This document shows, in pieces, positions 11,901-54,837 of a DNA stretch of 64,000 bases. The DNA is from an uncultured Halocynthiibacter sp. (GTDB lineage Bacteria; Pseudomonadota; Alphaproteobacteria; Rhodobacterales; Rhodobacteraceae). A model generated the notes under the pieces. The model ran no database searches. It saw only the letters and a program-made list of their open reading frames with translations, and was not told the DNA's origin. The DNA is taken from assembly GCA_947503035.1 (NCBI GenBank), contig CANNCD010000002.1, forward strand, positions 248,001 through 312,000, given 5' to 3'. The translations under genes were made by a program, and so were the position numbers. Each line of letters begins with the position of its first letter. Positions within the stretch are counted from its first letter, which is position 1.

Positions 11901-12782
11901 GTGGCGTTAATCTTAACAGTATTACAGATTGTCGCGCCGGTTTTCATTCTTGCCGCTATTGGATTTGCATGGGTACGCTTTGATTTCGAATATCGGATCG
12001 AATTCGTTACGCGCCTTACGATGACAATTTCCGTTCCATGTCTGATATTTAGCGCATTGGTGAACGCCGACATTGGCCGTGACGAATTCGCCGTACTGCT
12101 GTGGGCGTCGGCCCTATGCTATATCGTACTGTTTGTCGTGTTTGGCTTGGTATTGCGGGCGGGCGGGCTGAACATTCGAACATTCTGCGTCCCTCTCGTG
12201 TTTGGAAATACGGGAAATCTGGGCCTTCCGCTTGCTTTGTTTGCGTTCGGCCCCGAGGGGTTGAGCTATGCGATTGTCGTATTTGCGGTTATGGCGCTTA
12301 TGTCATTTACGATCGGCATCTGGATTGTGGCCGGCGGCGGGAACCCCATCGCGACGCTGAAGGAGCCAATCGTCGGGGCAACACTTCTGGGGACGGTGTT
12401 TCTGTGGAACGGTTGGGAGACACCAAAGTTCCTGACGGACACAATTGAGCTGATCGGGCAAATGGCGATTCCGTTGATGCTTTTGTCGCTCGGGGTTGCC
12501 TTGGCGCGCCTCAAACTCAACGCGGTTTTCCGCGCGAGCTGGTTATCAATATTCAAGGCTGCGGCCTCGATTGCCGTTGCCGTCGTGATCGGTCGTTGGC
12601 TCAATATTGAAGGGGTCGCTTTTGCGGTTCTGGTTCTTCAAATCGGCACCCCCGTTGCCGTAACGTCGTATTTTCTGGCTGCCAAATATGGGGGCGAAGC
12701 AGATGATGTCGCCAGCCTCGTGGTCATTTCGACCCTGATTTCGGTGCTTGCCTTGCCGATCACATTGGCGTTTTTGATCTGA
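11901..12782 (+). CDS. AEC-family transporter
   Basis: Auxin-efflux-carrier family permease, 293 residues with about ten membrane helices in two halves. The family elements FGNTGNLGLPLALFAFG in the first half and IPLMLLSLGVALA in the middle are plain, as is VLQIGTPVAVTSYFLAAKYG near the end. The substrate is not evident; relatives carry organic acids or amino-acid-like compounds. The GTG at 11901 follows AGGAG. No neighbour suggests a substrate. Confidence 0.85.
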   Translation: MALILTVLQIVAPVFILAAIGFAWVRFDFEYRIEFVTRLTMTISVPCLIFSALVNADIGRDEFAVLLWASALCYIVLFVVFGLVLRAGGLNIRTFCVPLVFGNTGNLGLPLALFAFGPEGLSYAIVVFAVMALMSFTIGIWIVAGGGNPIATLKEPIVGATLLGTVFLWNGWETPKFLTDTIELIGQMAIPLMLLSLGVALARLKLNAVFRASWLSIFKAAASIAVAVVIGRWLNIEGVAFAVLVLQIGTPVAVTSYFLAAKYGGEADDVASLVVISTLISVLALPITLAFLI

Positions 12783-40845: not shown

Positions 40846-41840
40846 TGCGCGCTCCTTTGTTTTGGTACACCGATCCCGCGCGGCCATCTTTGCCGTCTCG
40901 TTTGTTGGCGCCTTTGGCGAAACTCTATGCCCGTGGAACCGCGCGCCGTTTGCTGCGGCAACGGGGGTATCGGTCCAAGGTGCCGGTGATCTGTGTCGGT
41001 AACATCAACGCAGGCGGGACGGGAAAAACGCCGTCGACCATCGCGATTGTACAACATCTTTTGGGCATGGGCCTGTCGCCCTATGTCGTGTCGCGCGGCT
41101 ATGGCGGGACGTTGGACGGGCCGGTTTTGGTCGGTGCGCAATCCGCGGCCGAGGTCGGGGATGAACCGCTTTTGTTGGCCGCGTTTTGTCCCACCATCGT
41201 CGCCAAGGACCGCGCCGCGGGCGTGCGAATGGCCGAAGACGCAGGCGCCGATGTGATCCTGATGGATGACGGATTTCAGAACCCATCGGTGCACAAGGAC
41301 CTGTCGATTGTCGTCGTTGACGCCGCCCGTGGGTTTGGCAACGGACGTGTGTTGCCAGCGGGGCCGCTTCGTGAGCCGGTGCATGTGGGTATGTTGCGTG
41401 CGGATTTGGTGTTGTCCATTGGGGGCCCACAGGCACAGGCGACATTCGCCAAGGACTGGGCCCATGCAATCCCCGTGCCGCATATCACTGGCGCGCTGGA
41501 ACCTTTGCAGATGGGGTATGATTTTACGGATACGCGGGTGCTGGCGTTCGCGGGCATTGGCCACCCCGAGAAATTCTTTGCCACACTGCGGGCGATGGGC
41601 GCGGATGTGATCCGAGGCGAGGCGCTTGCCGATCATCAACCGTTGACCGATGCGCTTATGCTGCGTCTCGATAAAGAGGCCGCGCTCCATCAGGCACAGC
41701 TGGTGACCACCGAAAAGGACGCCGTGCGTCTGCCCGAACAGTTCCGCACACATGTGTTGACGGTGCCGGTGCGGCTGGTCCTAAACGACGAAACGCCGCT
41801 TGTGGCGGCGCTTCGATCCATTGGTTTGGGGCGCGATTAA
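40845..41840 (+). CDS. lpxK: Tetraacyldisaccharide 4'-kinase
   Basis: Adds the 4'-phosphate to the lipid A precursor at the membrane face. The 331 residues contain the P-loop [12 protein letters not shown] near residue 50, [20 protein letters not shown], the LPAGPLREP loop and [12 protein letters not shown]. The TAATG overlap with waaA shows coupling. The first segment ([18 protein letters not shown]) is the usual N-terminal amphipathic helix. It ends convergent to dsbA with a four-base overlap. Confidence 0.95.
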
Positions 41841-42502
41841 AGCGCGGCGTCGAGAACTTTCTTCAGCTCGGTATAGTTCACGTTTGCCTGTGGTTTGCCG
41901 TTGATCACAAAGGACGGCGTGGCGCGCACGTTGTCCTTGGTCGCGTTCTCTTGGTACCAAGCGATCAATGTCTGGGCCTTGTCGGTGTCTTCGAAACATG
42001 CGGTGATTTCGTCTGCGGTAAAGCCAGCAGACAGACCGATTTTGTTCAGATTCGCCGCGATGGAACCGTCTTGGCCACCGGACAACCATTCGCTTTGCTT
42101 GCTGAACAACAGGTCGTTCACGCCAAAGAAACGTTCTTGGCCGCCACAACGGGCCAACATGGACGCCCAAAGACCAAAGCGGTCAAAGTACACTTCGCGG
42201 AACACGAATTTCACCTTGCCGGTGTCGATGTAATCTTTTTGCAGATCGTGGAACACGTTGTTGTGGAAGCTCGCGCAGTGCGGGCAGGTATAGGACGCGT
42301 ATTCGATCATGGTGATTGGCGCGTTTTCGTCACCCAGAACCATCTCTTGGATCACGGATGTGTCGATGTCTGCGGGTGCGTCTTGGGCATTCAAGCGGGC
42401 GAACCCGTCGTCCACGGACGATGTCTGTGATGTGTAGAATGCGTAGCCACCTGTTGCGACGGCAACGGCACCAGCACCAATAACAAAATCTCTGCGGTTC
42501 AT
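41837..42502 (-). CDS. DsbA-family thioredoxin with Tat-like signal
   Basis: Periplasmic disulfide oxidoreductase, 221 residues, with CPHC active site (Cys73/Cys76 in [12 protein letters not shown]) and the cis-Pro region [11 protein letters not shown]. The N-terminus [19 protein letters not shown] carries a twin-arginine-like motif, so export may be by Tat. It likely introduces or isomerises disulfides in exported proteins. The dciA gene is just upstream on the same strand (4-base gap), so the two are probably co-transcribed. Confidence 0.88.
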
Positions 42503-42506
42503 GGGG

Positions 42507-43040
42507 TTATCCTTGTTTGGTCTTTGTTTTTAATATGATCGATTGTCCCAGCGCTTCAAGGGCTGCGCGCAGACCTTCGTCGCCAATGGGGGCCACGGCG
42601 GCCTTGGCGGCGGCTTTCTGCTCAGGGCTTGGCTCGGGACGCGCGGGTTTCGGCGCATCGATGAACTGGGCCTGACCCTCGGCGAAACCGGTGGGCGCGG
42701 TCTGGGTGATGCGAATCCGCGAAATGGCGTTATAGCCATAGCACGCGTTCACGCGGTCTTGGATGCGGGGCAGGTCGGCCTGCAACATGGGGGCCTGCGC
42801 GCCGGTTGTAAGAATGGTCATGGTCGCGCCAAAGCCACCTTGGCCATAGCTGACCTTGATTGGTTTCGCGATTTTGGCGGTGTCTTCGCCCACGATTTCG
42901 GCCCAATGGGTCAACAAACGGGATACGGCAAAGCCCCGTTTTTCGCCCGCTTTGCGGATCTGTTTCTGAAGGAGTCCAGACGTGCGTTCAAATCCGCGCT
43001 TACGGCGGTGGTTTGACGCGTATGATGTGGCCTTTTTCAT
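42507..43040 (-). CDS. dciA: DUF721 protein (DciA-like helicase loader)
   Basis: A 177-residue DUF721 protein. The N-terminal domain FERTSGLLQKQIRKAGEKRGFAVSRLLTHWAEIVG and the motif ARxAxPxxVxxxxxxL-like IKVSYGQGGFGATMTILTTGAQAPMLQADLPRI are as in DciA, which loads the replicative helicase in bacteria lacking DnaC. The C-terminal tail is Pro/Ala-rich (DAPKPARPEPSPEQ). It is divergent from mutY and precedes dsbA. Confidence 0.85.
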   Translation of the reverse strand: MKKATSYASNHRRKRGFERTSGLLQKQIRKAGEKRGFAVSRLLTHWAEIVGEDTAKIAKPIKVSYGQGGFGATMTILTTGAQAPMLQADLPRIQDRVNACYGYNAISRIRITQTAPTGFAEGQAQFIDAPKPARPEPSPEQKAAAKAAVAPIGDEGLRAALEALGQSIILKTKTKQG

Positions 43041-43121
43041 CTGTCATTCCTTGTGGGTTGCCCTATCTTAGACGCAACGGCGGCGGGTGCCAGTTCAATT
43101 AAAGTTAAGGACGGATAAATA

Positions 43122-44186
43122 TTGCGTGATCCAAGTTTCTCAGACGTGCTTTTGGCGTGGTACGACGTGCATGCGCGCGAAATGCCGTGGCGCGTTGGCC
43201 CAGCGGATCGTATGGCGGGCGTGCGCCCCGACCCCTATGCGGTGTGGATGTCCGAGATCATGTTGCAACAAACCACCGTTGCGGCGGTCACGGAATATTT
43301 CCGCAAGTTCATTGCCGCATGGCCGACGGTTGCCGATTTGGCGGCGGCGGATGACGCCGATGTCATGGCGGCATGGGCGGGGCTTGGATATTATGCGCGG
43401 GCGCGGAACCTGTTGAAATGTGCGCGGGCTGTGGTGGCGGACCACGGCGGCGTGTTCCCGTCGACCTATGACGCATTGCTCAAATTGCCGGGCATTGGGC
43501 CCTATACGGCGGGGGCGGTATCGTCGATCGCCTTTGATCAGGCATCGGTCGTGGTGGACGGAAATGTGGAACGGGTCATGGCACGATATTTCGCGGAACT
43601 GACCCCATTGCCCGCCGCCAAGCCCGCGTTGACGGCGCTCGCGGCACAGGAAACACCGGACAACCGCGCGGGCGATTACGCGCAGGCGGTGATGGATTTG
43701 GGCGCGACGATCTGTTCGCCGAAATCGCCGGCCTGCGGCATTTGCCCCGTGATGGAGTGCTGCGCCGCCCGCGCCCAAGGCATCGCGGCCGAACTCCCGC
43801 GAAAAACACCTAAGAAACCCAAGCCGACGCGCACCGGAACCGCCTATGTCGTGCGGCGAACGGACGGCGCGTGGTTGTTGGAAACGCGACCGGAAAAGGG
43901 ATTGCTGGGCGGGATGCTCGGCTGGCCAACGACCGACTGGGCCGAGGGCCTGCCCAAGGTTGATCCGCCAGTTCCCGCCGATTGGCGTAACACCGACTTG
44001 ACCGTGCGCCACACCTTCACGCATTTTCATCTGGAGTTGGATGTGAAGTTGGCCGTGGTCCCGATGACCGCCGAACCGACACGGGGCGGGTTTGTTGACG
44101 CGTCAAAATTTAGCCCCAAAGATCTGCCAACTGTGATGCGCAAGGCATATGACGCCGCCGCGCCCTGCTTTGAAACGGAGACCTAG
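43122..44186 (+). CDS. mutY: A/G-specific adenine DNA glycosylase MutY
   Basis: Base-excision repair enzyme, 354 residues, that removes adenine opposite 8-oxoguanine. The HhH motif KLPGIGPYTAGAV with catalytic Asp146 (VVVDGNVERV), Glu45 (SEIMLQQT), and the 4Fe-4S cluster Cys198-Cys205-Cys208-Cys214 are all present. The C-terminal NUDIX-like domain (about 230-350) recognises 8-oxoG. The start is TTG at 43122 with AAGGA ten bases before. The stop abuts the alkB ATG. Confidence 0.95.
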   Translation: MRDPSFSDVLLAWYDVHAREMPWRVGPADRMAGVRPDPYAVWMSEIMLQQTTVAAVTEYFRKFIAAWPTVADLAAADDADVMAAWAGLGYYARARNLLKCARAVVADHGGVFPSTYDALLKLPGIGPYTAGAVSSIAFDQASVVVDGNVERVMARYFAELTPLPAAKPALTALAAQETPDNRAGDYAQAVMDLGATICSPKSPACGICPVMECCAARAQGIAAELPRKTPKKPKPTRTGTAYVVRRTDGAWLLETRPEKGLLGGMLGWPTTDWAEGLPKVDPPVPADWRNTDLTVRHTFTHFHLELDVKLAVVPMTAEPTRGGFVDASKFSPKDLPTVMRKAYDAAAPCFETET

Positions 44187-45317
44187 ATGTCCGATACCAA
44201 GATCGCAAAATTCACCACTGCGCTGCCGTTTTGGCTGTCGCTAACGACCGTTCCCCTTGCGATGGCAGGTGCGGCGTGGGGCGGTGTTTGGGTCTGGGCA
44301 CTGCCGATCTATGGCTGGATCATGTTCTCGGTTCTGGATGCGCTGATCGGTCTTAACACCGACAATCCTGACCCGTTGACGCCCGATGCCGACCTGTTTT
44401 GGTACCGGCTGGTGACGATGTTGTGGACGCCGATCCAGATCGTGCTGATCTTTGGGATGATTGCCTATGTCACCGCGACGGACCATTTGACGGTGTTCGA
44501 ACGCATCGTTGTGTTCTTTGGGGTTGGCATCGCGTCGGGGACGGTTGGCATCAACTATTCCCACGAATTGATGCATCAACAAAGCAAACTTGAACGTTGG
44601 ATGGGCGATATCCTGTTGGCGTCGGTGCTGTATAGCCATTTCCGGTCTGAACATTTGCTGGTCCATCACCGCTATGTGGCGACCCCGCGCGACCCTGTGA
44701 CGGCGCGTTATAACGAAGGGTTCCACCGGTTCTTCCCACGGGTTCTGCACCAATGTTTCCGTTCGGCGTGGAATGCGGAAAAGGCGATGCTGGCGCGCAA
44801 AAATCTTGGCCCGATGCACCCAAGCAACCCGTTCATGCGCTATGCCGCGTTGCAGATCGGGTTCCTGATCCTTGCGTTTATCGTCGGCGGTTGGCTGGGT
44901 GTGGCGTTGTTCCTCTGGCAGGCCTATATCGCGATTTGGCAGCTCGAGCTGGTGAACTATGTCGAACATTATGGCCTGACGCGCGAACACCTTGGCGACG
45001 GGAAATACGAACACGTCAAACCGCACCATAGCTGGAACGCTGCGCATCGGGCGACGAACTGGTTGCTGATCAATCTGCAACGCCATTCGGACCACCACTA
45101 TAAACCCGACCGTCGGTTTCCGTTGTTGCAAACCTATGACGAAGACGAGGCGCCACAGCTCCCGTTTAGCTATCCTTTGATGACATCCGCGGCGATGTGC
45201 CCTCCGATTTGGAAGCGCATCATGAACAAACGGGTCAAGGCGTGGAGGGCCAAATTTTACCCCGAGATCGAGGATTGGCATCCGTATAATAAGGCGCTTA
45301 ATCCGAAGCCTAGGTAA
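44187..45317 (+). CDS. AlkB-type integral membrane alkane hydroxylase
   Basis: A 376-residue non-heme diiron monooxygenase with about six membrane helices. Histidine boxes are present: HELMH (126-130), HLLVHH (156-161), NYVEHYG (257-263) and LQRHSDHH (298-304). AlkB adds oxygen to terminal C-H bonds of alkanes or related compounds and needs rubredoxin for electrons. No rubredoxin or alkane regulator is near. It starts directly at the mutY stop, so the two share a transcript, but functional linkage is uncertain. Fatty acyl or other substrates remain possible. Confidence 0.87.
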   Translation: MSDTKIAKFTTALPFWLSLTTVPLAMAGAAWGGVWVWALPIYGWIMFSVLDALIGLNTDNPDPLTPDADLFWYRLVTMLWTPIQIVLIFGMIAYVTATDHLTVFERIVVFFGVGIASGTVGINYSHELMHQQSKLERWMGDILLASVLYSHFRSEHLLVHHRYVATPRDPVTARYNEGFHRFFPRVLHQCFRSAWNAEKAMLARKNLGPMHPSNPFMRYAALQIGFLILAFIVGGWLGVALFLWQAYIAIWQLELVNYVEHYGLTREHLGDGKYEHVKPHHSWNAAHRATNWLLINLQRHSDHHYKPDRRFPLLQTYDEDEAPQLPFSYPLMTSAAMCPPIWKRIMNKRVKAWRAKFYPEIEDWHPYNKALNPKPR

Positions 45318-45377
45318 GGTGTAGAGCCGATTTCATAGAGAAACCTCGAGTAAATGCTCGATCCTCTGCGAGTTTGT

Positions 45378-45914
45378 TTATTCAGCGTCATGCTCGATGG
45401 ATATCACGTAGCCCCCTAGTGGCCTCCTGTCTGAAACAAAGTAAATCGCCTCCAGAACGACAACTAGACCCTGACTCTGAAATGTGCTTCTCAGCCCGTC
45501 GGCCTGTGCCTCAGGGGAACCGTCAACCGCTGCCTTGCTATATTCAGGGTCGCCAAACGCCTCGCTCGCCTTTTGTGAAAGCGATTTGAAATGCGGGGTG
45601 ATCTCGTCCACGGTTAGGTCCTTTGACGATACATGGCAAAAGTAGCGGCCTTCGCCCCCTTCAGGCGGAAGCTTATACTGCGGCCTACCCACAAGTCCTG
45701 CTCGCTTAGCTTTGGAAGCAACCTTCGCGAACTGGCGGTCCGCCTCGGCCGCTGCCCTTACTCCCTCATCTATTGAAGATCCTGACCTAAGCTCTAGCGC
45801 CAGTTTATTTAGGCAAGCTCGTTTGAAAATTCCTGCACCCGTACTTGCTGCGTCCGCAAATGCTGCTGTGGTCGAAAAAAGGCACATGCAGAAAATAATT
45901 GAAATGACTTTCAA
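45378..45914 (-). CDS. Secreted hypothetical protein
   Basis: I do not recognise this family. The 178 residues start with a Sec signal (MKVISIIFCMCLFSTTAAFA); mature sequence holds two cysteines in KRACLNKLAL and GRYFCHVSSK that may form a disulfide. The chain reads as a mixed alpha/beta domain. Base composition seems lower in GC, and codons (CTA, TCT, AGA-like) differ from most neighbours, so it may be a late arrival. It lies between alkB and ccrM, transcribed toward alkB. Confidence 0.7.
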   Translation of the reverse strand: MKVISIIFCMCLFSTTAAFADAASTGAGIFKRACLNKLALELRSGSSIDEGVRAAAEADRQFAKVASKAKRAGLVGRPQYKLPPEGGEGRYFCHVSSKDLTVDEITPHFKSLSQKASEAFGDPEYSKAAVDGSPEAQADGLRSTFQSQGLVVVLEAIYFVSDRRPLGGYVISIEHDAE

Positions 45915-46030
45915 GCTTTTCTCTCCTTGTAATTCGCGAGATCATCTAGCCTCGATGAGAAAATTCGTACAAAATCCTGATAACTTTCCTTAATGGGGCA
46001 TTGTCACACAGACTTGCACACCACAAAAGG

Positions 46031-46059
46031 CAAAAAGCCCTGCCAAGCTAATGGCAGGG
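46031..46059 (-). terminator. Terminator of ccrM
   Basis: On the minus strand CCCTGCCA pairs with TGGCAGGG (46038-46045 with 46052-46059), then CTTTTTGCCTTTTG follows. It lies 50 bases after the ccrM stop. Confidence 0.85.
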
Positions 46060-46108
46060 AAGTCGGGTGTCAGCGTTTGACCGCCGACACCGGCGGTAAT
46101 CGCTGTTA

Positions 46109-47949
<1,841 letters not shown>

Positions 47950-47987: not shown

Positions 47988-48443
47988 TTAAAGTTCGAAA
48001 CCGTTGTCTTTCAGGCAGCGAGGCGAGAACACCTCGCGCTTGCCGCGTGACGACCAGATCGTGGTCTCACATTTCTGTGGCAACTTACGGTAGTCGTCAT
48101 AGGTCTTTTGAAGACAATATGAGCCAAAGTACCGCTCTACCCCCTTGGAGGTGTGGAACTGTGTCAGACATTGTGCTGGCAACGGGTCAATCCGCGCATA
48201 GGTCGGGCGTTTGCGGGGATCAGGGCGATGTGGGGAAACATGCGGCGTTTTCGTGTGAGCGTGACGCTCGTGGCGGGGCTCTGCCTTGTTGTTTTTGCTG
48301 GCTTGGCTGATTGCGATGATTGCTGCAGCACCCAAAAGGAACTTGGCAAAGTCCTGATTATTGTTCGCCTGTACGGGGGCGGCGGTCATGCCGGTCAATG
48401 CGATTGCCGCGGCCATTGTGGTCATCGTGAATTTCTTAAGCAT
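47988..48443 (-). CDS. Secreted basic hypothetical protein
   Basis: A 151-residue secreted protein without recognised family name, though the pattern is familiar from other Rhodobacterales. A Sec signal (MLKKFTMTTMAAAIALTGMTAAPVQA) leads to a hydrophobic stretch FAKFLLGAAAIIAISQ that could anchor it, a His/Pro/Arg-rich linker (about 60-90), then a small cysteine domain with LPAQCL, FGSYCL, PQKCE and SPRCL. These four cysteines may pair. The ATG at 48443 has ribosome site AAAGGA and gives a clean signal peptide. Confidence 0.75.
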   Translation of the reverse strand: MLKKFTMTTMAAAIALTGMTAAPVQANNNQDFAKFLLGAAAIIAISQASKNNKAEPRHERHAHTKTPHVSPHRPDPRKRPTYARIDPLPAQCLTQFHTSKGVERYFGSYCLQKTYDDYRKLPQKCETTIWSSRGKREVFSPRCLKDNGFEL

Positions 48444-48600
48444 CGGTATATCCTTTGGTTTGGGCACGTTCGGATCGGTGCCGTGTGTTGATGACCAAGG
48501 ATGTGTTGAACCCGCCAAGTTAAACAATATCGCCCGCCTGATATGGGATAGCAGCGCCGTTGTTATTGAATAGCATGTGGGTTTTCGTCATGGTGACCCC

Positions 48601-48879
48601 ATGAAACATGCCCTTATTATATGTGCGCTTCTTTGCGCGTCGCCCGTATCGGCCACCTGTTATGCTGACTATAAGGCCAAACAGGATTCCCCACTGAAAC
48701 TTGATTATGGTGTTGTGCGCCTGTCTGATAGTCAGTGTAATATGTCCGATGCCAAACGTGTCGTTGATCGTGTTCTTGCGAACTCTGGTTGGACGCTTTT
48801 GGGGGTACAGTCCGTGTTTGACGATGCGGGCCTCGCAGAACGAAAGAAGAGAGCCGGTGAAAACATCCTCCGCAACTGA
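48601..48879 (+). CDS. Small secreted hypothetical protein
   Basis: A 92-residue protein with a signal peptide (MKHALIICALLCASPVSA) and a short mature domain starting with TCYADYKAK and holding NGWTLL-like NSGWTLLGVQSVFDDAGL. Two cysteines (TCYAD and SQCNM) could pair. Proteins of this look occur in related Rhodobacterales. Its end overlaps the start of the winged-helix protein by 23 bases, suggesting a joint transcript. Confidence 0.75.
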   Translation: MKHALIICALLCASPVSATCYADYKAKQDSPLKLDYGVVRLSDSQCNMSDAKRVVDRVLANSGWTLLGVQSVFDDAGLAERKKRAGENILRN

Positions 48880-49555
48880 TCTACGCCGCGCAGGTAGTCG
48901 GATCGTTATCATTGGAATCGCGGCGATTGTCGGGATCTTGTTGGCGACTGCGATTTTCCTTGTTTTGACCCTACCGGACGCCAATGCGTTTAATGCGCGG
49001 GTGGAACGGATATTTATCGAGAACGGCGGCCTGACGGGCAGCGACGAAATCAAGTTGTTGGAAATCCTTGCACAGTCTGGCACTGCCTTTTCCGAGACCC
49101 TCGCGTCATACCGGATCATCGTGTTCATTCTGCTGACCTTTGCCGCGTCGTTGTTGATTGCGGCCTTGGTGTTTTTGGTGACGCTGTTGGGGATGAACCG
49201 CCGGATGGGCGAAATCGAACGGGCCGGAATTCAGGTGTCATCCCTATTGATCAGTCGCGAAGAAAAGACCGTTTTCCTGAACAACATGGAATTCAAACTG
49301 ACCGATGCGGCGATTGAAACCCTGTCCGTCTTGGCCGAGGCCCGCATGGACGAGGACGTCCTGACCGGCGCCGAAATCGAAGGCATCGTGTCGGGGCGTT
49401 CTGCTGCGGATTGTGATGAATCGGCGGGGGCGACGCGGATCAAACGTCTGCGCGATTCTCTTGGTAACCAGATGGTCAGCGAACTTTTGGTAAAAAACAT
49501 CGCTCGTCGCGGCTATATGTTGGCCATCGACAAGGACGTCATCCGCGTTCTGTGA
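48857..49555 (+). CDS. Membrane-anchored winged-helix protein
   Basis: A 232-residue protein with two membrane helices (about 16-39 and 87-112) flanking a 45-residue loop, presumably periplasmic. The cytoplasmic C-terminal half reads like an OmpR/ToxR-type winged helix: a helical start FKLTDAAIETLSVLAEA and the wing region TRIKRLRDSLGNQMVSELLVKNIARRGYML. No receiver domain is present. It could be a membrane-bound transcription regulator, but DNA binding is untested. The start is GTG at 48857 with GAAGAGAG before it. It lies just upstream of imuA (41-base gap). Confidence 0.72.
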   Translation: MKTSSATDLRRAGSRIVIIGIAAIVGILLATAIFLVLTLPDANAFNARVERIFIENGGLTGSDEIKLLEILAQSGTAFSETLASYRIIVFILLTFAASLLIAALVFLVTLLGMNRRMGEIERAGIQVSSLLISREEKTVFLNNMEFKLTDAAIETLSVLAEARMDEDVLTGAEIEGIVSGRSAADCDESAGATRIKRLRDSLGNQMVSELLVKNIARRGYMLAIDKDVIRVL

Positions 49556-49596
49556 TTTCTGATTTTCCCGTTTTGTTCCCTGTGGTATCATGGGGC

Positions 49597-50154
49597 ATGA
49601 ATCAGAGCTTTGACACCCTTTTCCCATTGCGTAAGGGCCGCACCCATGAGGTCTGCGGACCAGCGGCACCCGCCTTTGCCTGTGCCCTTGCGGGGCAGGC
49701 GCGGATGCGGGTGTTGTGGATCACGGAACACTGGCAATCGGCACAGATCAATCCGACTGGCTTTGGTGAATATTGCCCGCCCGACAGGGTGTTGACCGCG
49801 TCGGTTAAGGACCAAACCGATGGGCTTGCCAGCACAGAAGAGGCCCTGCGGTCCGGTGCCGTGGGTCTTGTGGTGATCGAGCTGACTAAACCGCTCACTT
49901 TGCTTGCGGGGCGTCGGTTACAGCTGGCCGCCGAGACGGGCCAATCCACCGGCCTGTGCATCATTCCCGACGGCATGGGAAGCCACGCCGCCGAAACCCG
50001 TTGGCGATGTTCGCCGGTTTTTGCCTCTGGGGACTCGACTCTGACGCGCTGGGAAATTATTAAGAACAAATCAGGAACATTAAGCGGTTGGGATGTAAAG
50101 TGGGATGCAAAAACGCATCGTGTCAGTGTGGTTTCCAAGGTTGCCCAGCAATAG
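49597..50154 (+). CDS. imuA: SOS mutagenesis protein ImuA
   Basis: First protein of the ImuA-ImuB-DnaE2 mutasome, 185 residues, a RecA-like fold that appears to have lost ATP-binding motifs. Visible parts: LRKGRTHEVCGPAAPAFACALAGQARMRVLWI and the middle LVVIELTKPLTLLAGRRLQLAAETGQSTGLCII. It starts at the ATG 49597. Its last 50 bases overlap imuB, and the LexA box lies inside its 3' end. The role is in damage-induced mutagenesis. Confidence 0.88.
   Translation: MNQSFDTLFPLRKGRTHEVCGPAAPAFACALAGQARMRVLWITEHWQSAQINPTGFGEYCPPDRVLTASVKDQTDGLASTEEALRSGAVGLVVIELTKPLTLLAGRRLQLAAETGQSTGLCIIPDGMGSHAAETRWRCSPVFASGDSTLTRWEIIKNKSGTLSGWDVKWDAKTHRVSVVSKVAQQ
50064..50078. promoter_or_regulatory. LexA box (GTTC-N7-GTTC type) within imuA, before imuB
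   Basis: GAACAAATCAGGAAC reads GTTC-N7-GTTC on the minus strand, the direct-repeat SOS operator of alphaproteobacterial LexA, with a perfect match. It lies 26 bases before the imuB start, inside the imuA reading frame. Placement suggests SOS control of imuB-dnaE2 or roadblock control of the whole cassette. Confidence 0.62.
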
Positions 50155-51571
50155 GGTTCTACGCGCACGTCCTGTCGATGGGCCATTTGTCGTCACGATC
50201 CACCACAAAAACGCCGACCGGATTTATTGTCTGAACGCCGCCGCCGAAGGGCAGGGGCTGAGCCATGGAATGCCCTTTGCCGATGCCCGCGCGTTTTGCC
50301 CCGATGTGACAAGCGACATCGCCGACCTTGATGCGGATGATCGGTTTCTACGGATGCTGCTGCGCTGGGCGAAACGGTATTGCCCGTGGGTGGGTCTCGA
50401 GGGGCGCGATGGTCTGACCCTGAACATAAGCGGCGCGGCGCATTTGTTCGGTGGCGAGGCGGCCCTGTTGGATGACCTGCGGATGCGTCTGACGCGCGCG
50501 GGTATCGAGGCGCGCTTGGGTCTTGCGGATACGCGTGGCGCGGCGTGGGCCTTGGCGCATTTCGGGCAGGGCATCGCCGCCGTGGGGCAATCCAAATCAC
50601 GGCTTGCCCCGCTTCCGATTGCGGCGCTGCGCCTCAAGGAAAAGACCTGTGTCGCGCTGCAACGGCTGGGCGTTCGGCGGATTGGTGACCTTAAAACCCT
50701 GCCAAGATCGACCCTAACAAGGCGTTTTGGCACAGAAGTGGTGATGCGGATGGATCAGGCGTTCGGCCTTCAACCCGAACAGATCACGCCCGAACTTGAC
50801 GCCCCGCATTACGGTGTGCGCATGACGATCCCCGATCCGATTGGGTTGTTTGATGATGTGATGGAGGGGGTGAAACGGTTGCTTGATCGGCTCTGTCCGA
50901 AACTGCATCGACACGAACAGGGGGCGCGGATGTTGGTTCTTGAACTGCGGCGCGTGGACCAAGCGCGTGAGCGGGTCACGCTGCGGCTTGCGCAACCTAT
51001 GTGTGATGCCGCACGGATTTTGCCTCTGTTCGAACGCGGGGTACAGGACGTTGATGCGGGGTTCGGGATCGACCAACTGCGTCTTGTCGCGACGCAAACC
51101 GATGCCCTTCCGGCGCAACAAATCACCCATGCGTCGAACGCCCCTGATACGGGTCTCGAGGATCTGATCACGCGGCTTGGCACACGTATCGGATTGGACA
51201 ATATCAAACGGTTCCTGCCCGCCGAGAGCCACATCCCCGAGCGGAGTTTTATCACCGCCCCTGCCGCCGTGACGCAGCCCACAGATGGCTGGTCGACGGA
51301 CCGTTCGCGGCCCATGGTTCTATTCCCCCCCGAACCCATCGCGGGGGCGGGGCAGCAACCACCGTCACGGTTTCGCTGGCGGCAAATGGCGCTGACCACG
51401 GGCCGCGCAACAGGCCCCGAACGGATTGCGCCTGAATGGTGGCTGCCCGATGACGAATGGCGGTCTGGTGTGCGCGACTATTGGAAGATCGAGACGACAC
51501 AGGGGCGGCGGCTTTGGCTGTTTTACACCCCGCAAAAACCGGCGTGGTTCGTGCAGGGGGAATTCGCATGA
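50105..51571 (+). CDS. imuB: Y-family polymerase-like protein ImuB
   Basis: Y-family DNA polymerase homologue of 488 residues that acts as hub of the mutasome without being a polymerase. It lacks the acidic metal residues: the opening reads IVSVWFPRLPSNRV where true polymerases have a D-x-D motif. Finger/palm-like parts (GLSHGMPFADARAFCP, LTLNISGAAHLFGGE) and the HhH region LQRLGVRRIGDLKTLP remain. The stop overlaps the dnaE2 start as ATGA. A LexA box lies just upstream. Confidence 0.92.
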   Translation: MQKRIVSVWFPRLPSNRVLRARPVDGPFVVTIHHKNADRIYCLNAAAEGQGLSHGMPFADARAFCPDVTSDIADLDADDRFLRMLLRWAKRYCPWVGLEGRDGLTLNISGAAHLFGGEAALLDDLRMRLTRAGIEARLGLADTRGAAWALAHFGQGIAAVGQSKSRLAPLPIAALRLKEKTCVALQRLGVRRIGDLKTLPRSTLTRRFGTEVVMRMDQAFGLQPEQITPELDAPHYGVRMTIPDPIGLFDDVMEGVKRLLDRLCPKLHRHEQGARMLVLELRRVDQARERVTLRLAQPMCDAARILPLFERGVQDVDAGFGIDQLRLVATQTDALPAQQITHASNAPDTGLEDLITRLGTRIGLDNIKRFLPAESHIPERSFITAPAAVTQPTDGWSTDRSRPMVLFPPEPIAGAGQQPPSRFRWRQMALTTGRATGPERIAPEWWLPDDEWRSGVRDYWKIETTQGRRLWLFYTPQKPAWFVQGEFA

Positions 51572-54500
51572 AGACCATCTCAACCCGCCCAGTCGTCGCG
51601 GGGCAGGTCGGCTATGCCGAGCTCTGCGTCACCAGTAATTTCACCTTTCTGACGGGTGCCTCCCACCCCGAGGAACTGATCGCCCGCGCGGTTGAACTGG
51701 GACTTGAGGCCATCGCTATCACCGACCGAAATTCGTTGGCGGGGGTGGTGCGGGCCTTTGCGGCGCTGCGGGAAATTCGGCGGGATGTGGGCAACGATGC
51801 GGTGCTGCCGCGGTTGATCGTGGGCGCACGGATTGTTCTACGCGACAGCCCCGTTGACTGGCTGGTCCTGCCACAGGATCGTCCGGCCTATGCCCGCCTC
51901 AGTCGGTTGTTGACCCTTGGCAAACGGCGCGCGGCCAAGGGCGAATGCCACCTTGATATTGCCGATCTGTTGGAGGGCTGCGCGGGGTCGATTTTGATCG
52001 CCCTACCGGATGGCGGGGCGGATGGTCATACCATTGCCAACCATATCCACGCCGCCGTGTCCCATTATCCGGGGCAGGTGTTCGTCGGCGCCGCCCCCCG
52101 TTACGACGGAAGCGATCAGGCCTACTTTGATCACTGTGCGGGGCTGGCGCATCGGACCAATGCGCCGATGGTTGCCGTGGGCGATGTGTTGATGCACCAC
52201 GCCAGCCGCCGCCAATTGGCCGATGTCCTGACCTGTATGCGCCACCACGTGACGATTGATCTGATCGGGACGCGGGCCTTACCCAATGCCGAACGACGGC
52301 TCAAGGGCGCGGGGGATATGGCGCGTCTGTTCCGCAACCACCCCGCCGCTCTGCGTCGAAGCGTCGAGATCGCCGCGCGCTGTGGCTTTGATCTGTCCGA
52401 GCTGTCCTATGAATATCCCGACGAAATCACGGGGAGTGAGGCCCCACAGGACCGTCTTGCGCGGCTGGCCCACGAAGGTCTGGCGCGGCGTTACCCGAAT
52501 GGCCCCACGCCCAAGGCCATCGCGCAGGTCCAAAAGGAATTGGCCCTTGTCGAGAAGCTGGATTTTCCGGCCTATTTCCTGACGGTGCATGATATCGTTC
52601 AATTCGCCAAATCGCAGGACATCCTGTGTCAGGGGCGCGGCTCGGCGGCGAATTCGATCCTGTGTTATCTGTTGGGGATCACCGATGTATCGCCGGAAAC
52701 GATCACCATGGTGGTCGAACGGTTCGTGTCCGAACATCGCGGCGAGCCGCCGGATATCGATGTCGATTTCGAACATGAACGCCGCGAAGAGGTGATCCAG
52801 CATATCTATGAAAAATACGGTCGGCACCGCGCGGGCCTCTGTGCGACGGTGATCCATTTCCGGTCCCGCGCCGCCATCCGCGAGGTGGGCAAGGTCATGG
52901 GTCTGTCGCAAGATGTGACGTCGAACCTGTCCGGCCAAATCTGGGGCATGTCCAACGGGGGCGCCGACCCCGAGCGGCTGCGCGAGATTGGGTTGGACCT
53001 GAATGACCGGCGGCTGGCGCAAACCATCCGGCTGATTGGCGAGATCATCGGATTTCCGCGCCACCTGTCACAGCACGTCGGCGGATTTGTCATTACCAAG
53101 GGGCGGCTGGACGAGATGTGCCCGATTGAAAACGCGGCCATGGATGACCGCACGGTGATCGAATGGGACAAGGACGACATCGACACGCTTGGCATTCTTA
53201 AGGTCGATATCCTGAGCCTTGGGATGCTGACCTGTATTCGCAAAAGTTTCGATTTGATTGAACAGTTCGGGGGCGATGCGATGACCATTGCAGATGTACC
53301 ACAGGGCGACAGTGAGACGTTTGATATGCTGTGCGTGGCCGATGCCGTTGGGGTGTTTCAGGTCGAAAGCCGCGCCCAGATGAATTTCCTGCCACGGATG
53401 AAGCCGCGCGAATTCTACGACCTTGTGATCGAGGTCGCGATTGTCCGCCCTGGCCCCATTCAGGGCGGGATGGTCCAACCCTATATCAAACGTCGTCAGG
53501 GGCTTGAGGCGGTTGAATTTCCGTCCAAGGAATTGGAAGAGGTGTTGGGCAAAACCCTTGGCGTGCCCCTGTTTCAGGAACAGGCGATGCAGATCGCGGT
53601 TGTCGCCGCGGGGTTCACGCCGTCGGATGCGGATCGGTTGCGTCGATCCATCGCGACGTTCCGGCGGATGGGGACCATCGGCACCTTTCAGGAGCAGTTC
53701 GTCAACGGGATGTTGGCCAATGGCTATGACGCGGAATTCGCCGAACGGTGTTTTTCCCAGATCGAGGGGTTTGCCGAATATGGCTTCCCCGAGAGCCACG
53801 CCGCCGCCTTTGCGATGCTGGCCTATGTGAGTGCGTGGTTGAAATGTCATCACCCTGCGGTCTTTGCCTGTGCGCTGCTCAATTCACAGCCGATGGGGTT
53901 TTACGCCCCCGCCCAGATCGTGCGTGATGTGCGCGAACATCAGGTCGAGGTCCGCCCCATTTGCGTGAATTACAGCACGTGGGACAATCAACTGGAACGT
54001 CGTGCGGACGGGACCCTCGCGCTTCGGCTTGGCTATCGTCAGATCAAAGGGTTCCGGCAGGAGGACGCCGATTGGATCGTCGCGGCGCGGGGCAACGGAT
54101 ATCCCGACCCCGAGAGTCTGTGGCTACGCGCGGGGATACGCCCGTCGGTTTTGGAGTTGCTGGCCGAGGCAGATGCGTTTTCGGACATGGGGCTGGGACG
54201 GCGCAATGCGTTGTGGCGGGTGAAGGCCATTCGCGGACCATCCCCGTTGCCCTTGTTCAGCAATCCGATGGACGGCGAGGGGATATTGGAACCCGACGTG
54301 CAATTGCCCGCCATGCATCTGGGCGAAGAGGTGGTCGAGGATTACGTTGCCATGCGTCTGTCCCTACGGGCGCATCCCATGGAATTGATCCGCCCGACGA
54401 TGGAGGGCCTAACCCCGCACGGGAACCTGTCGACCACCCCGATGGGGCGCATTTCGGTGTGCGGTTTGGTCATCACGCGCCAACGGCCCGGCACCGCGTC

Positions 54501-54837
54501 GGGGGTCGTGTTTCTGACGCTTGAGGATGAGACCGGCGTGTCCAATGTTGTCGTCTGGAAGAAGGTCTATAAACAATTTCGCCGCGCCGTGATGGGCGGG
54601 CGCTTGTTGCGGGTCACGGGGTATCTGCAACGTGAGGGCATCGTGGTGCATCTGATTGCGCAGAACATCGAGGACATGTCGCATAAGCTCTCTGAACTTG
54701 GCCACCCCATGGACGAGGTTCTGGGCATGACCCAACCACAGGCCGACGACGCCCCACGCAAAACCCGCCAGCCATCCCGCGCCATGCATCCGCGCGAACA
54801 GGCCAAACGGTTGTTCCCAAGCCGCGATTTCCACTAG
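51568..54837 (+). CDS. dnaE2: Error-prone DNA polymerase DnaE2
   Basis: Alpha-subunit-type C-family polymerase of 1089 residues that carries out SOS mutagenesis with ImuA/ImuB. The PHP domain opens with YAELCVTSNFTFLTGASHPEEL. The catalytic palm has GRGSAANSILCYLLGIT and PPDIDVDFEHERREEVIQHIYEKYGR. Further along come KVDILSLGMLTCI, PEFYDLVIEVAIVRPGPIQGGMV-like stretch and the C-terminal OB-fold (about 930-1010). I chose ATG 51568, which overlaps the imuB stop. Length is typical for DnaE2. Confidence 0.96.
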   Translation: MKTISTRPVVAGQVGYAELCVTSNFTFLTGASHPEELIARAVELGLEAIAITDRNSLAGVVRAFAALREIRRDVGNDAVLPRLIVGARIVLRDSPVDWLVLPQDRPAYARLSRLLTLGKRRAAKGECHLDIADLLEGCAGSILIALPDGGADGHTIANHIHAAVSHYPGQVFVGAAPRYDGSDQAYFDHCAGLAHRTNAPMVAVGDVLMHHASRRQLADVLTCMRHHVTIDLIGTRALPNAERRLKGAGDMARLFRNHPAALRRSVEIAARCGFDLSELSYEYPDEITGSEAPQDRLARLAHEGLARRYPNGPTPKAIAQVQKELALVEKLDFPAYFLTVHDIVQFAKSQDILCQGRGSAANSILCYLLGITDVSPETITMVVERFVSEHRGEPPDIDVDFEHERREEVIQHIYEKYGRHRAGLCATVIHFRSRAAIREVGKVMGLSQDVTSNLSGQIWGMSNGGADPERLREIGLDLNDRRLAQTIRLIGEIIGFPRHLSQHVGGFVITKGRLDEMCPIENAAMDDRTVIEWDKDDIDTLGILKVDILSLGMLTCIRKSFDLIEQFGGDAMTIADVPQGDSETFDMLCVADAVGVFQVESRAQMNFLPRMKPREFYDLVIEVAIVRPGPIQGGMVQPYIKRRQGLEAVEFPSKELEEVLGKTLGVPLFQEQAMQIAVVAAGFTPSDADRLRRSIATFRRMGTIGTFQEQFVNGMLANGYDAEFAERCFSQIEGFAEYGFPESHAAAFAMLAYVSAWLKCHHPAVFACALLNSQPMGFYAPAQIVRDVREHQVEVRPICVNYSTWDNQLERRADGTLALRLGYRQIKGFRQEDADWIVAARGNGYPDPESLWLRAGIRPSVLELLAEADAFSDMGLGRRNALWRVKAIRGPSPLPLFSNPMDGEGILEPDVQLPAMHLGEEVVEDYVAMRLSLRAHPMELIRPTMEGLTPHGNLSTTPMGRISVCGLVITRQRPGTASGVVFLTLEDETGVSNVVVWKKVYKQFRRAVMGGRLLRVTGYLQREGIVVHLIAQNIEDMSHKLSELGHPMDEVLGMTQPQADDAPRKTRQPSRAMHPREQAKRLFPSRDFH

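Follow-up and report, generated by a model that had tools for sequence, protein, structure and literature searches.

The stretch of DNA analysed here, referred to as the window, comprises 64,000 nucleotides from an uncultured Halocynthiibacter sp. (Rhodobacteraceae) and contains, next to an SOS cassette, the gene of a putative regulator that combines membrane helices with a winged helix. Which genes such a protein could regulate from the membrane, with which partner it could do so and whether it has any part in the SOS response are the questions raised by this locus.

The open reading frame starts with GTG at 48857, ends with a stop codon at 49553-49555 on the forward strand and encodes 232 aa, at the position (48857-49555) given in the first-pass annotation. 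The latter had described two membrane helices followed by a C-terminal OmpR-like winged helix, an order reversed compared to ToxR and with two helices instead of one, together with a 45-residue periplasmic loop and no receiver, and this domain reading is borne out by hydropathy, charge and predicted structure. The protein consists of a short basic N-terminus, a first membrane helix (TM1), a loop of about 45 residues, a second helix (TM2), a basic linker and the winged helix. Two membrane stretches are indicated by 19-residue windows with hydropathy above 1.6, which begin at residues 11-27 and 81-99, and the net charge is +3 ahead of TM1, -3 in the loop and +1 past TM2, a pattern according to which both ends should be inside; the loop between the helices is predicted to be periplasmic. 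In a structure model made without templates, residues 127-228 are predicted to form an OmpR-type winged helix, at moderate confidence (mean pLDDT 75.5) and with wing residues 214-218 below 50. Comparison of this model with known winged helices, a check proposed together with the annotation, placed the DNA-binding domain of CadC (5ju7) first in Foldseek (probability 1.00, E 0.017) and OmpR-family response-regulator domains after it, with no match reaching E 0.001. The VIA structure search returned winged-helix rows at Z 6.6-8.4 over about residues 127-228, in a list headed by an unrelated helical match (Z 9.0). Pfam Trans_reg_C (PF00486) scored 19.2 bits, below its gathering cut-off of 26.2, and matches in NCBIfam were far under their cut-offs, so that the OmpR/PhoB-type fold is assigned by structure match over residues 127-228, with the wing at low confidence. 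No receiver domain was matched in Pfam or NCBIfam, and the N-terminal part consists of the two membrane helices. The protein is not a response regulator, nor is it a ToxR-like receptor by structure, given the reversed order and the two helices; with its predicted transmembrane region and DNA-binding domain it falls under the broad definition of transmembrane transcription regulators as worded in a survey of these proteins (PMC10269533).

That the regulator gene is real follows from its relatives in other genomes. It was found in 28 of 61 genomes, its own and 27 others with relatives at 54-77% identity, which make up 28 of the 37 genomes inside the family and none of the 24 outside. Mean column identity over 28 regulator sequences is 77%, and the five matches of a profile search over 385 genomes of the class all belong to the family. 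A phylogenetic profile, likewise suggested at the outset, was extended to 296 family genomes (one per genus, completeness at least 95%), and here the regulator is present in 243, with one match each and always accompanied by a second, small gene: both genes occur in 243 genera and neither in 53, the two lists of 243 carriers having been matched by eye. The small gene lies directly upstream of the regulator in 28 of 28 loci. In three genomes (G476, G524 and G538) the pair is split by about 1-4 kb, with both genes retained and the operators described below at the small gene; G538 has one further operator site 130 nt ahead of the regulator, and in another genome (G672) the small protein is matched twice.

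In the window the small gene (48601..48879, forward strand, 92 aa) overlaps the start of the regulator by 23 nt. Its product has a signal peptide, two invariant cysteines and a conserved YKAK...PLRLHYG...GWxLL pattern, and these features, together with the co-occurrence, mark it as a candidate exported partner. In a co-component system of the VtrA/VtrC type one would look for an adjacent, often overlapping gene whose product has a signal peptide or a membrane helix; such a gene is present here, but upstream of the regulator and not downstream. The structure model (m20aff089a80b, pLDDT 86.5) shows three strands and two main helices in the order beta-beta-alpha-beta-alpha, with no clear match among solved PDB structures and no sequence match. 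The meaning of the locus lies for the most part in this overlapping gene and the operators preceding it, neither of which the first-pass annotation mentioned.

Named genomes were scanned by way of the best 80 of 560 loci encoding a relative of the regulator, nearly all of them from Rhodobacteraceae genera (Roseovarius, Shimia, Ruegeria, Sulfitobacter) or uncultured relatives, with a few titles that give only Alphaproteobacteria or Paracoccaceae. Among these 80 loci the small gene had 74 blast matches; the six others comprise four shortened forms, one cut by a contig end and one with a different gene in that place (L074). The usual C-terminal part of the partner is missing or altered in four Roseovarius loci (L035, L047, L095, L107) and in L020, where the regulator is retained. 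The small gene precedes the regulator in the named loci, and rnhB (72 of the best 80 of 560 by blast) and ccrM (70) run away from it. All four genes are present in 70 of these 80 loci, and there the distances between small proteins gave partial correlations of 0.32 with the regulator loop, 0.31 with TM1, 0.29 with the DNA-binding domain and 0.05 with RnhB, and do not single out the loop. A CcrM tree of low resolution (8 starred branches among 54) gives a mere hint of how often the pair may have been lost independently, with 11-12 changes on the best tree and 1-2 forced. In eight family genomes (G014, G029, G442, G475, G481, G557, G568 and G551) the best CcrM match is weaker than 1e-30, G475 coming closest at 3.1e-26, and these genomes probably lack this CcrM methyltransferase.

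The neighbourhood also bears on the SOS response, as the regulator had been placed upstream of an SOS cassette. Such a cassette does adjoin it in the window, but it is not part of the regulator's unit: imuA, imuB and dnaE2 were found beside the regulator in none of the best 80 of 560 named loci, in flanks of up to 10 kb, and the SOS link was rejected as incidental. The cassette imuA-imuB-dnaE2 itself lies at 49597-54837, and its ImuA reaches 28.1 bits in NCBIfam, where the cut-off is 150. LexA-type boxes (GTTCN7GTTC) occur in the window at chance level (64 found, 62 expected), and the one nearest imuA, at 49564-49578, has one mismatch. On the other side, the conserved neighbourhood at 41837-47949 includes rnhB, named by Pfam, and genes which we take to be dsbA, a DUF721 gene, mutY, an alkane-monooxygenase-like gene and ccrM; its far part is present in 38-42 and ccrM/rnhB in 70-72 of the best 80 of 560 loci. 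Between this block and the small gene lies, on the reverse strand (47988-48446, ATG near 48446), the gene of a divergent exported protein that has no match in Pfam or NCBIfam and occupies this place in 63 of the best 80 of 560 loci. With the operator region in common, this gene and the small gene could be under joint control.

Three candidate operator sites of 13 bp with the consensus GTTAT-N3-ATAAC are located ahead of the small gene. Over 130 distinct upstream regions, site 1 reads G-N-CA-N-G-CAATAWC, site 2 GTTATCGGATAAC and site 3 GTTATTGAATAAC. In the window, site 1 (GTTAAACAATATC, 48519..48531, PWM score 11.1 and weak in this genome) precedes site 2 (GATATGGGATAGC, 48540..48552, score 15.1) by 21 bp, and site 2 precedes site 3 (GTTATTGAATAGC, 48562..48574, score 21.5) by 22 bp. 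Spacing was analysed in the 101 of 130 promoters in which sites 2 and 3 both agree in at least 10 of 13 positions, the other 29 having been dropped. Between the starts of these sites the distance is 22 bp in five promoters, 31-33 bp in 82 and 41-44 bp in 14, never a value in between, and in all but one of the 101 (100 promoters) site 1 lies 21 bp ahead of site 2. Spacing by whole DNA turns is the mark of proteins that sit on one face of the helix, and the class of turns changed at least nine times on a quick tree of the regulator. Site 3 contains a predicted -35 element, TTGAAT (48566-48571), as supported by promoter alignments: in 39 promoters with the ATG 39 bp from site 3, TTGAAT inside the site is followed at a fixed spacing of 17 bp by CANNNT and about 7 bp further on by the ATG, and 37 promoters with the ATG at 40 bp have the same pattern in weaker form. 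The remaining 54 of 130, with other distances from site 3 to the ATG, were left out of the alignment. In 76 of 130 promoters the message of the small gene is thus probably leaderless, with the operator over the -35 element, and in the window, where the predicted -10 element is CATGGT (48589..48594, forward strand), the transcript is predicted to start leaderless at the A of the ATG (48601).

A strict paired pattern derived from these sites occurs in 53 of 199 family genomes and in none of the reversed control; the genome of the window lacks it, since its own sites depart from the pattern. Across the 1,467,013 bp of the best 80 of 560 named loci, 130 of the 131 sites scoring at least 16 are situated within 700 nt upstream of the regulator. 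A weak site at 11982 of the window scores 13.8, and in its genome single sites with one mismatch (65, vs 23 in the reversed control) are too noisy to be read.

Palindromes of this kind could instead be read by another regulator, a soluble one such as Zur or of the LacI/TetR type, for which the membrane protein would be just one target among others. In Gammaproteobacteria the Zur box reads GTTATANTATAAC. The Zur sites reported for Paracoccus denitrificans, for example GTAATGTAATAACAT, come close in geometry and share the right half ATAAC (PMC5387054). The promoter of the small gene, however, does not carry a Zur box by either its centres or its third base: among 126 copies of site 3 and 101 of site 2 no A-N-T centre was found, the listed operator centres include no GTA, ATA or GAT, unlike the five clear Paracoccus sites, and T occupies the third position in 96% of site 3 copies and 86% of site 2 copies, where four of the six sites given for Paracoccus have A (PMC5387054). 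As the strong sites of the best 80 of 560 loci, moreover, cluster at one promoter, a soluble regulator is considered unlikely. CenR was rejected as the operator binder as well, the motif described for it being TGA-N8-TGA (PMC9275681).

A second rival reading holds that the winged helix is no longer regulatory, so that the protein would serve as a scaffold in the membrane or help to assemble envelope proteins, and its conservation would stem from protein contacts. The loop is as conserved as the DNA-binding domain (mean distances 0.185 and 0.178), which, like the Pfam score under the cut-off, would suit a scaffold. Against it stand the basic recognition helix, whose KRLRD is invariant across 179 distinct homologues, and the conserved operator array at the linked gene, and we regard this reading as the least probable of those weighed here. 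In two homologues (L215 and L217) N204 is replaced and a strong site is missing from the 700 nt ahead of the regulator gene; with only two such changes, however, this must be set beside the roughly one in ten of 176 N204-bearing regulators that likewise have none; L215 retains one good operator site at the small gene.

If the membrane protein itself reads these operators, it remains to be asked whether it does so at its own promoter only. A strictly locus-specific operator was dropped as an assumption when sites off the locus were found to recur at the same genes. Searched in 40 carrier genomes, the strict single site occurs at 26 places, 18 at the promoter of the small gene and eight elsewhere, with none in the reversed control, and several of the eight lie ahead of the same kinds of gene. 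In G564 the second match of the paired pattern precedes a gene for a YiaD-type OmpA lipoprotein. A gene of this type (NF053611, 224.8 bits, cut-off 175) was taken for a first test. Its orthologues are present in 40 of 41 carriers of the pair and 20 of 36 non-carriers, together 60 of 77 genomes, and with a matrix built only from small-gene sites, a strong site was found upstream of it in 12 of 40 genomes with the pair and in none of 20 without; after removal of the three genomes that had given the idea, the counts are 9 of 37 and 0 of 20, and shuffled sequence yields 1-2%. One of the 12 (G571) has its site 351 nt away, where it may serve another gene, and in 28 of the 40 carriers, among them the genome of the window, no strong site precedes the YiaD-type gene. 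The lack of sites before this gene in the 20 genomes without the pair further argues against a soluble regulator.

A second exact pattern occurs at 55 places in 50 carriers and at 10 in 30 non-carriers, of which 25 and 10 are off the locus as assigned from coordinates; the reversed control has six in carriers and four in non-carriers, so that genomes without the pair exceed the control too. For comparison of the downstream genes, 33 off-locus loci of carriers were assembled (24 from the second exact pattern, eight from the strict single site and one from the strict paired pattern), leaving out one site before the YiaD-type gene of G003. A signal-peptide-like start follows within 230 nt at 21 of the 33 carrier sites vs 1 of 10 non-carrier sites (Fisher 0.0036) and at 191 of 1,943 random positions (9.8%), as judged by a crude rule applied without gene calling. 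Twelve of the 33 fail this rule (L356, L359, L368, L378, L390, L391, L392, L284, L285, L278, L289 and L394), although L278, L289 and L394 look right by eye; L393 passes but is a PssA-like membrane protein, L385 passes with a start 224 nt away, and the sole passing non-carrier site (L395) does not look like a signal peptide. Two candidate targets recur at six loci each, the YiaD-type lipoprotein, for which four of the six tested as OmpA family, and a DUF5333 protein, confirmed by Pfam in all six, whose gene lies beside what are presumably nuo genes. One-off candidates are LolA, an MltB-like transglycosylase, DUF2799, DUF3108, two cytochromes, a PssA-like enzyme and a peptidoglycan-binding protein. 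Among 30 target sites selected by eye, TTGRAT is oriented towards the gene at 20 and away from it at three. Exact sites elsewhere in genomes with the pair thus tend to precede genes of exported proteins, and the candidate regulon appears small, uneven and lineage-dependent.

The opposite case, in which the regulator controls its own promoter only, sites off the locus arise by chance and the trend towards exported genes is a small-sample fluke, draws on the low number of exact sites off the locus and on their presence in non-carriers (10 in 30). It is also favoured by the window's own genome, in which two exact off-locus sites with any centre exist: L144, 59 nt before the gene of a small lipoprotein (no Pfam match) that is divergent from a coproporphyrinogen oxidase gene, and L143, between genes that do not look exported. 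In view of the two recurring targets, the proportion of sites ahead of signal-peptide-like starts compared with random positions and the reduced YiaD-type counts, we judge it improbable, slightly more so than a soluble regulator. The presence of two genes, their co-occurrence, the putative operators with their phasing and the placement of such sites before apparently exported genes can be read from the sequences themselves.

The explanation favoured here, which is probably correct, is a ToxRS-like sensor-regulator of the envelope made up of two genes, with domains and genes in reversed order, that would bind palindromes at its own promoter and at genes of exported proteins. The winged helix, tethered at the inner membrane by two helices, would bind the GTTAT-N3-ATAAC palindromes, presumably as a dimer, whose two-fold axis suits palindromic sites. 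These sites would overlap the -35 element of the regulator's own operon, with three of them on one DNA face, and that of a few lineage-dependent genes for exported proteins (YiaD-type and DUF5333; in single genomes LolA, MltB-like and others). Translated from the same message, the small exported protein would reside in the periplasm and report the state of the envelope to the regulator by way of the conserved loop, so that the pair would work like ToxR/ToxS, with the level of envelope proteins as output. The regulator as operator binder, its contact with the partner, the signal and the direction of control are what we infer beyond the arrangement of genes and sites. As to direction, a site over a fair -35 element suggests repression, and a weak -10 element with C in first place, together with a PhoB-like position of the operator relative to the promoter, would suit activation; we lean slightly towards repression.

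A broader claim, which could equally prove right or wrong, is that of an envelope-sensing system of the Rhodobacteraceae, built from a soluble protein in the periplasm and a membrane regulator, ToxR-like but reversed, that would read palindromes over -35 elements. It would adjust genes of outer-membrane lipoproteins, lipoprotein carriers and peptidoglycan remodelling straight from the inner membrane, with no need of a kinase, a protease or an alternative sigma factor. Rhodobacteraceae are common in the sea, and about four in five genera of the family (243 of 296) carry one copy of the regulator. If the regulator works as read here, the family would possess an envelope regulator whose operator is defined and whose targets are few, with natural knock-outs at hand, a combination that would make it testable at once in common laboratory strains, and the ToxRS/VtrAC idea would reach beyond enteric virulence and gain a second layout. 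No published description of the regulator or the pair was found in the open-access literature searched.

Among known systems, ToxR/ToxS and VtrA/VtrC are alike in having a membrane-held winged-helix regulator and a small periplasmic partner encoded by an adjacent, often overlapping gene; as described there, however, the winged helix is N-terminal, followed by one membrane helix, and the partner gene lies downstream, whereas here two helices precede a C-terminal winged helix and the partner gene lies upstream (PMC9214523 for ToxR/ToxS and VtrA/VtrC). The partner in VtrA/VtrC is given as lipocalin-like, the model obtained here as beta-beta-alpha-beta-alpha, and those cassettes are called fast-evolving, unlike the present pair, which is conserved across the family (PMC9214523). 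A further likeness is that the model of the DNA-binding domain is nearest to CadC. ArnR of Sulfolobus acidocaldarius, an archaeal protein, reportedly has two helices at the C-terminus and its DNA-binding domain at the N-terminus, and would share the two helices with the regulator in the opposite domain order. A membrane-bound one-component regulator, it is listed in the survey of transmembrane transcription regulators, proteins which like ours combine a transmembrane region with a DNA-binding domain and of which 17% are given as two-helix forms (PMC10269533, Table 1 for ArnR). By the organisms listed in Table 1 of that survey, there is no characterised example from the regulator's family (PMC10269533). 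Rsp of Neisseria gonorrhoeae, with an N-terminal membrane receptor part and a C-terminal DNA-binding domain, is a precedent for this position behind a membrane part, although its parts derive from PilS and PilR and not from an OmpR-type winged helix, and the survey entry lists no partner (PMC10269533). OmpR-family response regulators share the winged-helix fold, among them CenR of Rhodobacter sphaeroides, which is described as governing envelope genes in the same bacterial group (PMC9275681); in contrast to these, the regulator has a membrane anchor and no receiver. OmpR-family regulators are said to bind direct repeats often, as CenR does with TGA-N8-TGA, whereas the sites at this locus are inverted repeats, the palindromes GTTAT-N3-ATAAC (PMC9275681 for CenR and the family).
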